DNA of 37,362 nt from an uncultured Candidatus Thioglobus sp. (GTDB lineage: Bacteria; Pseudomonadota; Gammaproteobacteria; PS1; Pseudothioglobaceae), in contig CAJQRX010000024.1 of NCBI GenBank assembly GCA_905612405.1, forward strand, positions 1 to 37,362, read 5' to 3'. Below the pieces are notes generated by a model. The model saw only the letters and a program-made list of their open reading frames with translations. It had not been told where the DNA came from and made no database searches. The translations under genes and the position numbers were made by a program. Positions 14,792 to 21,929 of the stretch are shown one piece after another. Positions within the stretch are counted from its first letter, which is position 1. Each line of letters begins with the position of its first letter.

Positions 14792-15190
14792 TTATTCCTT
14801 TATTCTTTTTTTAACAAATTTGCCTGTAAGTCTGTATTTTTGGCTTGGACTCTTCGGACTATCTGGAATTGTTAATTCTAAGAAGTCTTGATCAAGAAGT
14901 GGATTAATTATTGCTGTTTTAAATTTTGATTTATTTGATCTCTTTAGAATTTTCATAAGTTCTAATGCGCTACTTTCTTTTTTACATTTTTTTAGAATTT
15001 GTAGATGGTCCCTACTTAGTCCCTTCTTAGTCCCTATGATCTTATTATTAGTTTCAGAGCGGTATAAAAAAGATAATTGCTCAACCTCTTGACCAATTTT
15101 TTTACTTCTCTTTATATCCTTAGTCCAGTCTACAGATTGCGTAACTTCTGGAGGTTCGTGAGGTTGTTCTTTTTTTAGGAAACTAAACAT
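14792..15190 (-). CDS. Stand-alone Fic-C-terminal-type winged-helix protein
   Basis: A 132-residue protein. Its second half (about residues 55-127) resembles the winged-helix domain found at the C-terminus of some Fic proteins and AAA_4-type (RecG-like) regulators: GTKKGLSRDHLQILKKC, then NPLLDQDFLELTIPDSP and QKYRLTGK. The usual Fic (HPFxxGNGR) or AAA_4 domain is absent. Instead there is a charged N-terminus of about 50 residues. No ribosome-binding site is obvious. It may be a small DNA-binding regulator or a remnant of a larger protein. It lies downstream of, and on the same strand as, the amino-acid transporter operon. Confidence 0.65.
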   Translation of the reverse strand: MFSFLKKEQPHEPPEVTQSVDWTKDIKRSKKIGQEVEQLSFLYRSETNNKIIGTKKGLSRDHLQILKKCKKESSALELMKILKRSNKSKFKTAIINPLLDQDFLELTIPDSPKSPSQKYRLTGKFVKKRIKE

Positions 15191-18608: not shown

Positions 18609-19616
18609 TTATCTAAATGGAGGTGAGTAAAGAATACCACCTTGTGACCATAGTGCGTTAACACCACGAGCAATACCAATTGGAGTATTAACACCAATAT
18701 TGCGCTCAAAGCTTTCAGAGTAGTTACCTACTTGCTTAATGATCTGGTAAGTCCAGTCTGAAGTCAAACCAACGTACTCATGAGTGCTTCCAGAGCGACC
18801 CATTAAGCGCTCACGCTCAGGGTTGTTAGAAACCATATCAACAGTAGCACTAGTAACACCAATCTCTTCAGCAGTAATCATAGCGTTTAGAGACCATCTT
18901 ACGATGTTAAACCACTGGTCATCACCTTGACGAACAACAGGGCCTAAAGGCTCTTTAGAAATGATTTCTGGAAGCACAACGTGCTCAGAAGGATCGTTCG
19001 CACCAGCACGCATTGAATATAATCCAGATGCGTCAGTTGTTAGAACGTCACAACGACCAGCGTCATAGTTGCTTAGAGTTTGAGCATTTGTATCAGAAAC
19101 AACAGAGTTGTAATCGATACCGTTTGCTTTACCCCAGTCAGCTAAGTTTAATTCAGTAGTTGTACCTGCTTGAATACAAATCGCAGCTCCACCTAATTCC
19201 ATAGCACTAGAAACACCTAGAGAAGACTTGACCATAAAGCCTTGTCCATCATAGTAGTTAACACCTGCAAAGTTAAGACCTAGTGAAGCGTCACGAGTAA
19301 TTGTCCAAGTAGTATTTCTAGACAACATGTCGATCTCACCAGACTGAAGTGCAGTGAATCTTTCTTTAGCAGTTAGTGGTACAAATTTAACCTTAGTTGC
19401 ATCGCCAAGCGTTGCAGCAGCAACAGCACGACAAACATCAACATCAACACCTGTCCATGTTCCTGAAGAGTCAGCAGAAGAGAATCCCGCAAGACCTTTA
19501 GATACGCCACAAGAAACGTGGCCTTTAGCTTGAACGTCGCTTAATGTAGAAGCTTGTACACCTAGTGCACCAACAACTAACAACGAAGCAGCAGTCAATT
19601 TTAGTAATTGTTTCAT
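18609..19616 (-). CDS. aapJ: General L-amino-acid ABC transporter, periplasmic binding protein
   Basis: Captures amino acids in the periplasm and delivers them to AapQM. It has a signal peptide (KQLLKLTAASLLVVGALGVQA, likely cut near residue 21-22) and then the AapJ/BztA-type solute-binding fold: VQAKGHVSCGV, TWTGVDVDVCRAVAAA, RNTTWTITRDASLGLNF, AICIQAGTTTELN and the C-terminal NALWSQGGILYSPPFR. The frame is open 14 codons further up, but the ATG at 19616 follows AAGGAG at the right distance and begins the signal peptide. The mature part is free of Lys/Arg-poor or damaged stretches. It is the first gene of the operon. Confidence 0.96.
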   Translation of the reverse strand: MKQLLKLTAASLLVVGALGVQASTLSDVQAKGHVSCGVSKGLAGFSSADSSGTWTGVDVDVCRAVAAATLGDATKVKFVPLTAKERFTALQSGEIDMLSRNTTWTITRDASLGLNFAGVNYYDGQGFMVKSSLGVSSAMELGGAAICIQAGTTTELNLADWGKANGIDYNSVVSDTNAQTLSNYDAGRCDVLTTDASGLYSMRAGANDPSEHVVLPEIISKEPLGPVVRQGDDQWFNIVRWSLNAMITAEEIGVTSATVDMVSNNPERERLMGRSGSTHEYVGLTSDWTYQIIKQVGNYSESFERNIGVNTPIGIARGVNALWSQGGILYSPPFR

Positions 19617-19685
19617 ATATATCTCCTTAATGAGTTTCAAAGTATAACAATCCATCACAATCGCGTGAGGACTACAGAAATTTTA

Positions 19686-19699
19686 TCACTACTTAGTGA
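19686..19699. repeat. Palindrome TCACTA-CT-TAGTGA upstream of aapJ
   Basis: A perfect 6-bp inverted repeat with a two-base centre, 70-83 bases upstream of the aapJ start. Its size and place fit an operator for the transporter operon; the regulator is unknown. Confidence 0.5.
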
Positions 19700-19936
19700 C
19701 ATAATACTAGTTATTTTTAAAATCAATTTACGTCTCTAAGGCTAATGAAATAGCGGTATTTTCATAAACACTATGTAATTTAATTTAGAAATATTTATAA
19801 AAATTTAATGAATTCAATTCAATTTTTATAGACCACCATAATGCTTATTTTGTAATTAAATGGACTAAAAATTAATAATTTTAGTTTTAAAATATTATAT
19901 TTTTAATTATCTATTTATACTTATAAAACAATGACT

Positions 19937-19970
19937 TAAACGTATATTAGTTAATAAATACATACGTTTA
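19937..19970. repeat. Inverted repeat TAAACGTAT ... ATACGTTTA
   Basis: Perfect 9-bp arms (19937-19945 and 19962-19970) separated by 16 bases, about 25 bp centre to centre. The arms contain ACGT in an otherwise AT-only stretch, which makes chance less likely. It lies 85-118 bases upstream of the nadE start and may be a binding site for a dimeric regulator. Confidence 0.5.
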
Positions 19971-19996
19971 TATTCCCTTAATTTATGAACTATAGG

Positions 19997-20024
19997 TATT
20001 TTATAACTATAGTGGTATAAAATA
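19997..20024. repeat. Inverted repeat TATTTTATA ... TATAAAATA before nadE
   Basis: Perfect 9-bp arms (19997-20005 and 20016-20024) with a 10-base spacer, ending 30 bases before the nadE start and probably overlapping its promoter. Because the arms contain only A and T, chance is a real possibility. A candidate operator for the DNA-binding domain of nadE itself. Confidence 0.4.
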
Positions 20025-20054
20025 ACTAATATATACTTAAACTAATGAGTCATA

Positions 20055-21929
20055 GTGAATAAAAAAACAACTGAATACCTTGCTCTGGTGCGCCAGAAAA
20101 CTGGTTTTTCTGATTATAAAATTTCTAAGGAGTATGATATTAACCAATCTAACCTTAGTAAATATAGTTCTGGCAAGTCCGCTTTGAGTGAAACACATGC
20201 CTGGTTATTTGCTAATATTCTTGAATTAGACCCTTCAGAAGTAGTCGCAAATACTAAGTATGAACATGCAATAAACACTGGAAATAGTTTGAAGGCTGTA
20301 TTTTGGCAAGAACAGCTTAATAAGATATTCTCTGAGTCAGAGCCGATTAAAATCCAAATCGCTCAATTTAACCCTATTGTTGGTGATATTAAGGCAAATG
20401 CCTTGAGAATGTTAGGCTTGATTAATGAAGCTCATGAAATGGGTGCACATTTAATTATTTTTCCAGAATTAGCCATTACTGGCTACCCTCCAGAAGATCT
20501 TTTATTTAGAGATGGATTTATTAAGCAAGTTAATAATGAAATAATTAATTTATGTAATCTAGTTCCTTCGACTATAACTATTTTATTTGGCGCACCAAGT
20601 AAATTAAATGATTTTCTTTTCAATAGCGCTTTTTGTATTCAAGGCAATCGAGTTATTCATGTCTATAACAAACAAGAACTACCTAACTATGGTGTTTTTG
20701 ATGAAAAACGCTACTTCACCTCTGGTGATGAGTCATTTGTATTTGAGTGTCAACAAACTAAAGTTGGTGTTTTAATTTGTGAAGATCAGTGGATTGATGG
20801 TCCAATGGATAGATTATGTCAGTCTAATATCGATGTAGTAGTTTCTCTTAATGCATCACCGTTTCAAATAGACAAACAAAATCAGCGTATAGATAGATGC
20901 AAACACTTCGCTTTAAAATTTGATCTTTCATTTATTTACGTTAATATGGTGGGAGGTCAAGACGAAGTTGTCTTTGATGGCAACTCTTTTGTTATAAGTA
21001 ACCTTGGAGAACTTACTCTTCAGCTTCCTGCGTTTAAAGAACTGTCTTCGCCTCATAACAGTACTGATTATTTACCCTCTATCTTAACCGAAGAGGAATC
21101 TATTTACTCTGCACTTGTTTTAGCGACAAGAGATTATATTCAAAAGAACTCCTTTGGAGGTGCTTTAATTGGCTTGTCGGGAGGTATTGACTCAGCCTTG
21201 ACTCTTGCTGTTGCTGTTGATGCTATTGGTCCTAAAAATGTTCATGCAGTTATGATGCCTTACCAATTTACATCTGATATGAGCCTAGAGGACTCCGAAC
21301 TTCAAGCGCGAACTCAAGGAGTTCAGTTTTCAAATATTGATATCCACTCGATGGTTGATTCTTTTAATTTTTCTCTTAATGATTTTTTTGAAAATACCTC
21401 TCCAGACTCAACTGAAGAAAATATTCAAGCTAGAGTTCGAGGTACTCTTTTAATGGCTCTTTCTAATAAATATCATAAAATTGTACTTGCAACTGGTAAC
21501 AAATCAGAAATGGCAGTTGGTTACGCAACTTTATATGGAGACATGTGTGGTGGATTTGCTCCACTTAAGGATATTCCTAAAACAATGGTATATAGGCTTT
21601 CTAGCTATAGAAATTCAGTGTCTGCAGTTATTCCTGAGCGTGTTATAACAAGACCTCCTTCTGCTGAGCTTGCGCCTAATCAAGTTGATCAAGATACACT
21701 TCCTTCATATGAAGTTTTAGATGATATTTTAAAGAGATTTGTTGAATTAAAAAACTCTGTAGCTCAAATTACTGAGCAAGGTCATAGCCTTGAGGTTGTT
21801 AATAAGGTAACTTCTATGATTCTTAGAAATGAATACAAAAGGAGGCAATCTGCCCCTGGTCCTAAAATAAGTGGGAATGCTTTTGGTAAAGAAAGAAGAT
21901 ATCCAATGACATCAAAGTTTAAGCCTTAA
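20055..21929 (+). CDS. nadE: HTH domain fused to glutamine-dependent NAD+ synthetase
   Basis: Makes NAD+ from deamido-NAD+, ATP and glutamine. Residues about 97-350 are the nitrilase-type glutaminase with its triad Glu138 (FPELAITGYPPEDLLF), Lys206 (NKQELPNYGVFDEKRYF) and Cys242 (VLICEDQW). Residues about 350-624 are the synthetase with SGGIDS (375-380), TGNKSEMAVGYATLYGD (480-496) and RPPSAELAPNQ. Unusually, about 96 residues precede the normal start: residues 8-58 form an XRE/Cro-like helix-turn-helix (YKISKEYDINQSNLSKYSSG, recognition helix near 30-40), and 59-91 look like the tail of small phage-type regulators. The frame is unbroken. An in-frame stop at 20046 makes GTG 20055 the first usable start, and no ATG exists at the domain junction (a TTG is at 20289). 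The NadE call is certain; the regulatory role of the HTH is inferred. Confidence 0.95.
   Translation: MNKKTTEYLALVRQKTGFSDYKISKEYDINQSNLSKYSSGKSALSETHAWLFANILELDPSEVVANTKYEHAINTGNSLKAVFWQEQLNKIFSESEPIKIQIAQFNPIVGDIKANALRMLGLINEAHEMGAHLIIFPELAITGYPPEDLLFRDGFIKQVNNEIINLCNLVPSTITILFGAPSKLNDFLFNSAFCIQGNRVIHVYNKQELPNYGVFDEKRYFTSGDESFVFECQQTKVGVLICEDQWIDGPMDRLCQSNIDVVVSLNASPFQIDKQNQRIDRCKHFALKFDLSFIYVNMVGGQDEVVFDGNSFVISNLGELTLQLPAFKELSSPHNSTDYLPSILTEEESIYSALVLATRDYIQKNSFGGALIGLSGGIDSALTLAVAVDAIGPKNVHAVMMPYQFTSDMSLEDSELQARTQGVQFSNIDIHSMVDSFNFSLNDFFENTSPDSTEENIQARVRGTLLMALSNKYHKIVLATGNKSEMAVGYATLYGDMCGGFAPLKDIPKTMVYRLSSYRNSVSAVIPERVITRPPSAELAPNQVDQDTLPSYEVLDDILKRFVELKNSVAQITEQGHSLEVVNKVTSMILRNEYKRRQSAPGPKISGNAFGKERRYPMTSKFKP

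Follow-up and report, generated by a model that had tools for sequence, protein, structure and literature searches.

NadR is the closest analogue, in working principle, of the protein described here: in both, an N-terminal HTH is joined to an enzyme of NAD synthesis. According to the available part of PMC12421817, the HTH gives NadR of Enterobacterales its repressor function, which responds to NAD and ATP, and the targets include nadB, nadA, pnuC and pncB. The two proteins differ in what follows the HTH: NadR carries NMN adenylyltransferase and ribosylnicotinamide kinase, which are absent from HTH-NadE, where CN_hydrolase and NAD_synthase are the only further domains. For the palindromes described below, nadE itself is the recurring multi-site target that was found.

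Two other kinds of control are relevant. Dimeric glutamine-dependent NadE is described, in the part of PMC7196632 that was available, as subject to feedback inhibition by NAD that is relieved by PII, with nadE often located beside glnB. HTH-NadE is an enzyme of the same type, and control by PII likewise ties NAD synthesis to the status of the cell; it acts by protein contact, whereas HTH-NadE carries a predicted DNA-binding domain, and its gene is preceded by aapJ or a Sel1 gene and in many cases followed by pabB. NrtR and NadQ are regulators of NAD genes, the HTH of NadQ being homologous to that of NrtR (PMC5343134, available text). They resemble HTH-NadE in being lineage-limited and in having palindromic sites, but are separate proteins. 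A fusion of an HTH with NadE was not found described in the literature searched, nor in the available parts of PMC7196632, PMC5343134 and PMC12421817.

The locus and the HTH-NadE fusion

The window (the whole stretch of DNA analysed, 37,362 nucleotides) comes from a SUP05/Thioglobus-type genome. As proposed in the earlier note, aapJ and the HTH-nadE fusion were found to diverge from a single gap of 438 bp (21% GC); on its other side nadE is flanked by pabB.

18609-19616, minus strand: aapJ, amino-acid ABC transporter binding protein, heading aapJQMP; ATG start with AAGGAGA upstream
20055-21929, plus strand: HTH-nadE fusion; GTG start; XRE-type HTH followed by glutaminase and NAD synthetase domains
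HTH-NadE residues 1-95: predicted XRE-type HTH; helix 2 at residues 20-27, helix 3 at residues 31-39

The closest solved chain to AapJ was 4z9n (E 4.7e-122). Scans of the window returned no Rfam family at gathering score and no tRNA. Downstream of aapP, positions 14792-15190 (minus strand) encode a small protein whose C-terminal domain is Fic-like (PF21247); in several genomes, relatives of this protein are encoded close to the aap locus or to what is left of it.

The NadE part of the fusion was assigned unambiguously by a whole-length match to PRK13981 (708.7 bits; cut-off 479). The N-terminus scored 21.3 bits against Pfam HTH_3, just under the cut-off of 23; its predicted fold was a confident six-helix model (mean pLDDT 94.4), and the top PDB matches of this model were lambda-repressor/XRE-type HTH domains (best E 0.033, none reaching E 0.001). 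Judged by the model, the N-terminus has an XRE/lambda-repressor-type fold. A full-length model of moderate quality (pLDDT 75.8) was set aside.

Conservation was assessed in 65 uninterrupted HTH-NadE proteins of more than 600 residues. The recognition-helix residues NQSNLSK are nearly invariant: N30, Q31, N33, L34, S35 and K36 did not vary, and S32 was S in 64 proteins. In the enzyme part, E138, K206, C242, S375, G376, G377, D379 and S380 were invariant in 65/65, and I378 was I in 64 and V in one; we take E138/K206/C242 to be the glutaminase E/K/C residues and SGG.DS to be the ATP motif. The HTH was more conserved than the enzyme part in 61 of the 65 proteins. The four exceptions, with a fast-changing HTH (ratio 1.12-1.41), belong to reduced symbiont genomes without aapJ and may represent one event; six other genomes without intact aapJ had an HTH of normal conservation. 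At one further locus (L150 3091-3370, G055) the HTH part is split over two frames while the NadE frame is open, through either real decay or assembly error.

The HTH was present on NadE in 71 genomes of a family sample of 83, many of which are incomplete, including 49/49 of the genomes with a completeness of at least 90%; the 12 genomes without it were all less than 90% complete. Among the best 80 NadE loci from named genomes, the 16 with an HTH all fell in the lineage of the window, and the HTH was absent from 64/64 loci of other bacteria. Among 369 genomes drawn from the class, four matched the HTH profile at E 1e-6, all within the family; the 365 genomes without a match at this threshold include every listed non-family genome. 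An order-level search returned the same 83 genomes. Relatives of the HTH were not found among the plasmids and viral contigs searched, and the search of phages gave only a weak CI-like match (E 5e-3) in two records of one phage. In the genomes examined, the HTH-nadE fusion appears to be fixed in the lineage.

Palindromes upstream of nadE

The earlier note had pointed to inverted repeats in the gap. Such repeats are present, though not in a number above chance when the gap is taken alone: eight exact inverted repeats of at least 8 nt were counted against a mean of 4.2 in Markov shuffles (P ~0.09), and the longest, of 11 nt, had P ~0.15. Sigma70-like sites around the gap were likewise at chance (6 against 5.0 in shuffles). 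With the repeats at chance level, the case needs comparison with relatives, and judging by such alignments part of them is meaningful solely through conservation.

When the 21 gaps of the window's genus were aligned, strongly conserved blocks were seen directly upstream of nadE, which resolved to a 16-bp palindrome near TRGTWAWWWWTWACYA. Column conservation was calculated from 16 genus members, five of the 21, mostly near-duplicates, having been dropped; the mean over the gap was 0.69. The features on the nadE side and in the middle of the gap are as follows.

20013-20028, no strand: O1, operator-like palindrome TGGTATAAAATAACTA, 27 bp before the nadE start; 15 bits; mean column conservation 0.99
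19994-20009, no strand: O2, operator-like palindrome AGGTATTTTATAACTA, 19 bp start-to-start from O1; 12 bits; conservation 0.89 (19993-20008)
19948-19963, no strand: O3, operator-like palindrome TAGTTAATAAATACAT; 10 bits; conservation 0.88 (19947-19962)
19926-19938, plus strand: degenerate IHF-consensus-like copy, the exact consensus not occurring in the gap; conservation 0.85 (19924-19937)
19809-19822, no strand: mid-gap inexact match to a further palindrome, which relatives have as TTGAATTWAATTCAA; conservation 0.80 (19806-19826)

At least one palindrome of 8 bits was found within 250 bp upstream of nadE in 71/71 fusion genomes, by a matrix that was trained on the sequences it scored; the mean per upstream region was 2.5 at 8 bits, compared with 0.15 in shuffled sequence, a null that takes no account of shared ancestry. 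As a separate test, a matrix trained on the genus, whose two starting sites were written after all alignments had been seen, found the palindrome in 50/50 nadE upstream regions of ten other genera (shuffle null 4.35, with the same disregard of ancestry). Outside the family, none of 64 nadE upstream regions reached 8 bits (best 7.9). Adjacent palindromes were mostly spaced by 19-20 bp (39 pairs) or 35-36 bp (32 pairs). In most genomes outside the window's genus, TATAAT lies at about -40 from the nadE start codon and abuts the promoter-proximal palindrome. An IHF-consensus-like element was exact at -150 to -90 of nadE in 50 of 70 relatives (shuffles 0.5), and HU/IHF-family proteins were encoded in 14/14 genomes, none of them above the IhfA cut-off. 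Exact copies of TTGAATTWAATTCAA were seen in 4/14 genus genomes searched, one in each, located by coordinates between aapJ and nadE (L187-L190).

A search of 14 genomes with the strict degenerate pattern TRGTWWWWWWWWACYA, which misses weaker sites, gave 46 matches, compared with 63 for the backwards control. Fifteen of the 46 lay at nadE, in 12 of the 14 genomes; in the other two the array is present without an exact match. Of the 31 matches elsewhere, 18 fell inside open frames of at least 100 codons. One place recurred, before a ferredoxin-like gene of the window's genus (Fer4_21 and FeS domains; L194, L203, L217-L232 and L242), where 12 of 17 orthologues have an 8-bit palindrome 19-21 bp before the start. 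The Fe-S domains of this gene are of RnfB type. Because the palindrome stands singly and only its left half is consistently conserved, the site may be a -10 element; the gene is a possible second target and the sole hint of a wider regulon.

The aapJ side of the gap

On the side of aapJ the gap contains two conserved elements.

19680-19687, minus strand: aapJ -10-like element, GATAAAAT on the aapJ strand; conservation 0.89 (19678-19691)
19651-19671, minus strand: inverted repeat within what is presumed to be the leader of aapJ (read on the aapJ strand: TCCTCA ... TGATGGA); conservation 0.82 (19641-19677)

An alignment by eye matched GATAAAAT to GATAAACT, which precedes aapJ in other genera. 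The block 19678-19691 had been considered as a candidate operator near aapJ and was dropped because it coincides in this alignment with the aapJ -10 of those genera. The inverted repeat follows directly after the -10-like element and was terminator-like in 16/16 genomes of g9 and g10, with differing stems; overall, terminator-like aapJ leaders numbered 32/56, compared with 34/280 shuffles. Possibly, the repeat serves in the leader to control the importer. The -10-like element followed by the repeat was seen in the window (19651-19687, minus strand) and also in the aapJ leaders of L131, L132, L136, L138 and L157-L159.

The aapJ/nadE neighbourhood, on which the earlier note had built, is retained in most fusion-bearing relatives, so the separation that would have refuted the note was not seen: aapJ lay within 1.5 kb upstream of HTH-nadE in 50/71 genomes, some aapJ being cut by a contig end and some contigs ending too early for the distance to be judged. 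It was the direct divergent neighbour in 34/71, namely in 21/21 of the window's genus (g1), 11 of g8 and one each of g3 and g5. A Sel1-repeat gene (PF08238), which starts about 230-240 bp from nadE and reads away from it, stands between the two genes in 16 of these 50 pairs. In L131 (-239 to -592 from nadE) and its relatives, a small gene without a Pfam match lies farther out than the Sel1-repeat gene; this arrangement between nadE and aapJ occurs in several genera but not in that of the window. In one more genome aapJ is 4.5 kb away; in G061 the two genes seem to lie across the start of a genome assembled as a single contig, and in G001, where aapJ was found on a separate contig, nadE has another gene upstream. 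Downstream, pabB, which is not known to be linked to NAD, lies within 250 bp of nadE in 45/71 fusion genomes. As pabB is similarly kept, the proximity of aapJ is weak evidence, and the closeness of the two genes is largely general synteny.

The palindromes were scored where aapJ is missing or displaced. They were kept upstream of nadE in 10/10 genomes without intact aapJ (one to four sites; G033-G042 of g5, with no aapJ match in eight and fragments in G038 and G039) and in 3/3 genomes with aapJ elsewhere (two to three sites). G070, G071 and G081 gave no aapJ match and kept strong palindromes at nadE. Conversely, only one of 51 aapJ-side regions reached 8 bits (G015, 8.15), and among five aapJ genes that the sequence read did not connect to nadE, one was preceded at 248 bp by a match of 10.3 bits, while for the remaining four no score exceeded 3.2. 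Because the palindromes persist where aapJ is lost, decayed or elsewhere, they follow nadE, and on this comparison the conserved control region is assigned to nadE rather than to aapJ. The control region that the earlier note had placed in the gap stands, as repeated and conserved operator-like sites beside HTH-NadE; that it is shared with aapJ is not supported. By the same comparison aapJ appears to be a neighbour through synteny, having a promoter-like element and an inverted repeat in the leader of its own. In g5, decaying aap genes beside an intact HTH-nadE were observed in L112, L116, L120 and L123 (G041, G038, G039 and G035), which is operon loss in progress.

Proposed regulation of nadE

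In the reading preferred here, to which we give a probability of about 0.68, the gap region would be the promoter of nadE with an operator array: HTH-NadE would bind the palindromes and repress its own gene in a ligand-tuned manner, with aapJ controlled separately. Binding of the palindromes by HTH-NadE, repression as the effect and the sensing of a ligand are all deduced from sequence comparison. In favour of this reading count the palindromes at nadE in all fusion genomes and across genera, the lack of both HTH and palindromes outside the family, the array that is kept without aapJ, the TATAAT abutting the promoter-proximal palindrome, the conserved recognition helix and HTH, the palindrome before a standalone relative of the HTH (below) and the lack of an NrtR-type domain in the 14 genomes searched. 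Against it count the HTH_3 score under the cut-off, the fast-changing HTH of the four symbiont genomes, the two arrays that the strict pattern missed and the conservation of the aapJ side in the genus. Most likely, dimers of the N-terminal HTH occupy the 16-bp palindromes, in many cases at a spacing of 19-20 bp, and HTH-NadE would thereby cover the promoter and repress its own gene. An IHF-type bend immediately upstream might assist. Because the proposed repressor is the last enzyme of NAD synthesis, the ligands of the protein itself (NAD, NaAD, ATP or glutamine) probably modulate its binding to DNA; this would provide feedback on NAD synthesis. Part of the control of NadE activity that is seen in other bacteria may here sit at transcription.

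A hint from outside nadE comes from a standalone relative of the HTH, clearly present in one of the 83 family genomes (L164 2505-2759, G044), with 84 residues of 45% identity to the NadE HTH (tblastn). An 8.6-bit palindrome lies 46 bp before its start, the chance of which is about 3.4% for its 250 bp; three places in the same 5-kb locus outscore it, with a maximum of 12.7 bits within the standalone gene itself. This thin evidence is the only evidence outside nadE that would tie the HTH to the palindrome.

The palindromes could be nadE operators for another regulator, the HTH of NadE being a structural leftover. This is unlikely, although it has arguments on its side: methylphosphonate synthase, an enzyme, carries a similar HTH fold (6b9s, 6b9t), and DNA binding does not follow from the presence of such a domain on an enzyme; the outgroups lack both the HTH and the palindromes, so that co-occurrence in one lineage cannot separate the HTH from another regulator; and the regulator search covered the NrtR type only, whose winged-helix domain was found in 0/14 family genomes while 4/14 control genomes gave a match. 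Against a leftover stand the near-invariant recognition helix, an HTH that is more conserved than the enzyme, and the palindrome before the standalone relative. It is improbable that the gap is plain AT-rich sequence between syntenic genes, without sequence-specific control by NadE. The inverted repeats at chance in the window alone and the genes kept on both sides of nadE would suit such a gap, but the recurrence of the palindromes across genera and the conservation of O1 contradict it for the nadE side; it may still hold for aapJ.

Shared control, in which HTH-NadE would act from this region on aapJ as well and tie amino-acid import to NAD or nitrogen state, as the earlier note had suggested, is rated somewhat less likely than a foreign regulator. 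The constant divergent layout in the window's genus and the closeness of aapJ in 50/71 genomes speak for it, as do an IHF-like bend that could join distant DNA and the conservation of the aapJ-side DNA in the genus (0.82-0.89). The scarcity of 8-bit sites on the aapJ side (one of 51 regions, and one of five aapJ not joined to nadE) argues the other way, as do the Sel1 gene within close pairs and an array that persists without aapJ. A link to the uptake of amino acids is therefore not supported, although it keeps a small probability where aapJ directly adjoins nadE. A broader form, in which HTH-NadE serves as the NAD/glutamine sensor of the lineage through its active sites and an IHF-bent array switches nadE together with the adjacent aapJ, is held to be as improbable as the plain gap.

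If autorepression by HTH-NadE is correct, the fusion would be a second NAD-pathway enzyme that doubles as a DNA-binding regulator, reached by a fusion other than that of NadR, and this reading predicts a precise operator. The locus also illustrates that two genes may keep a divergent arrangement through synteny alone, with the control elements belonging to one side. In the genomes examined, the fusion appears to be characteristic of an entire lineage, which comprises marine bacteria and symbionts of animals.
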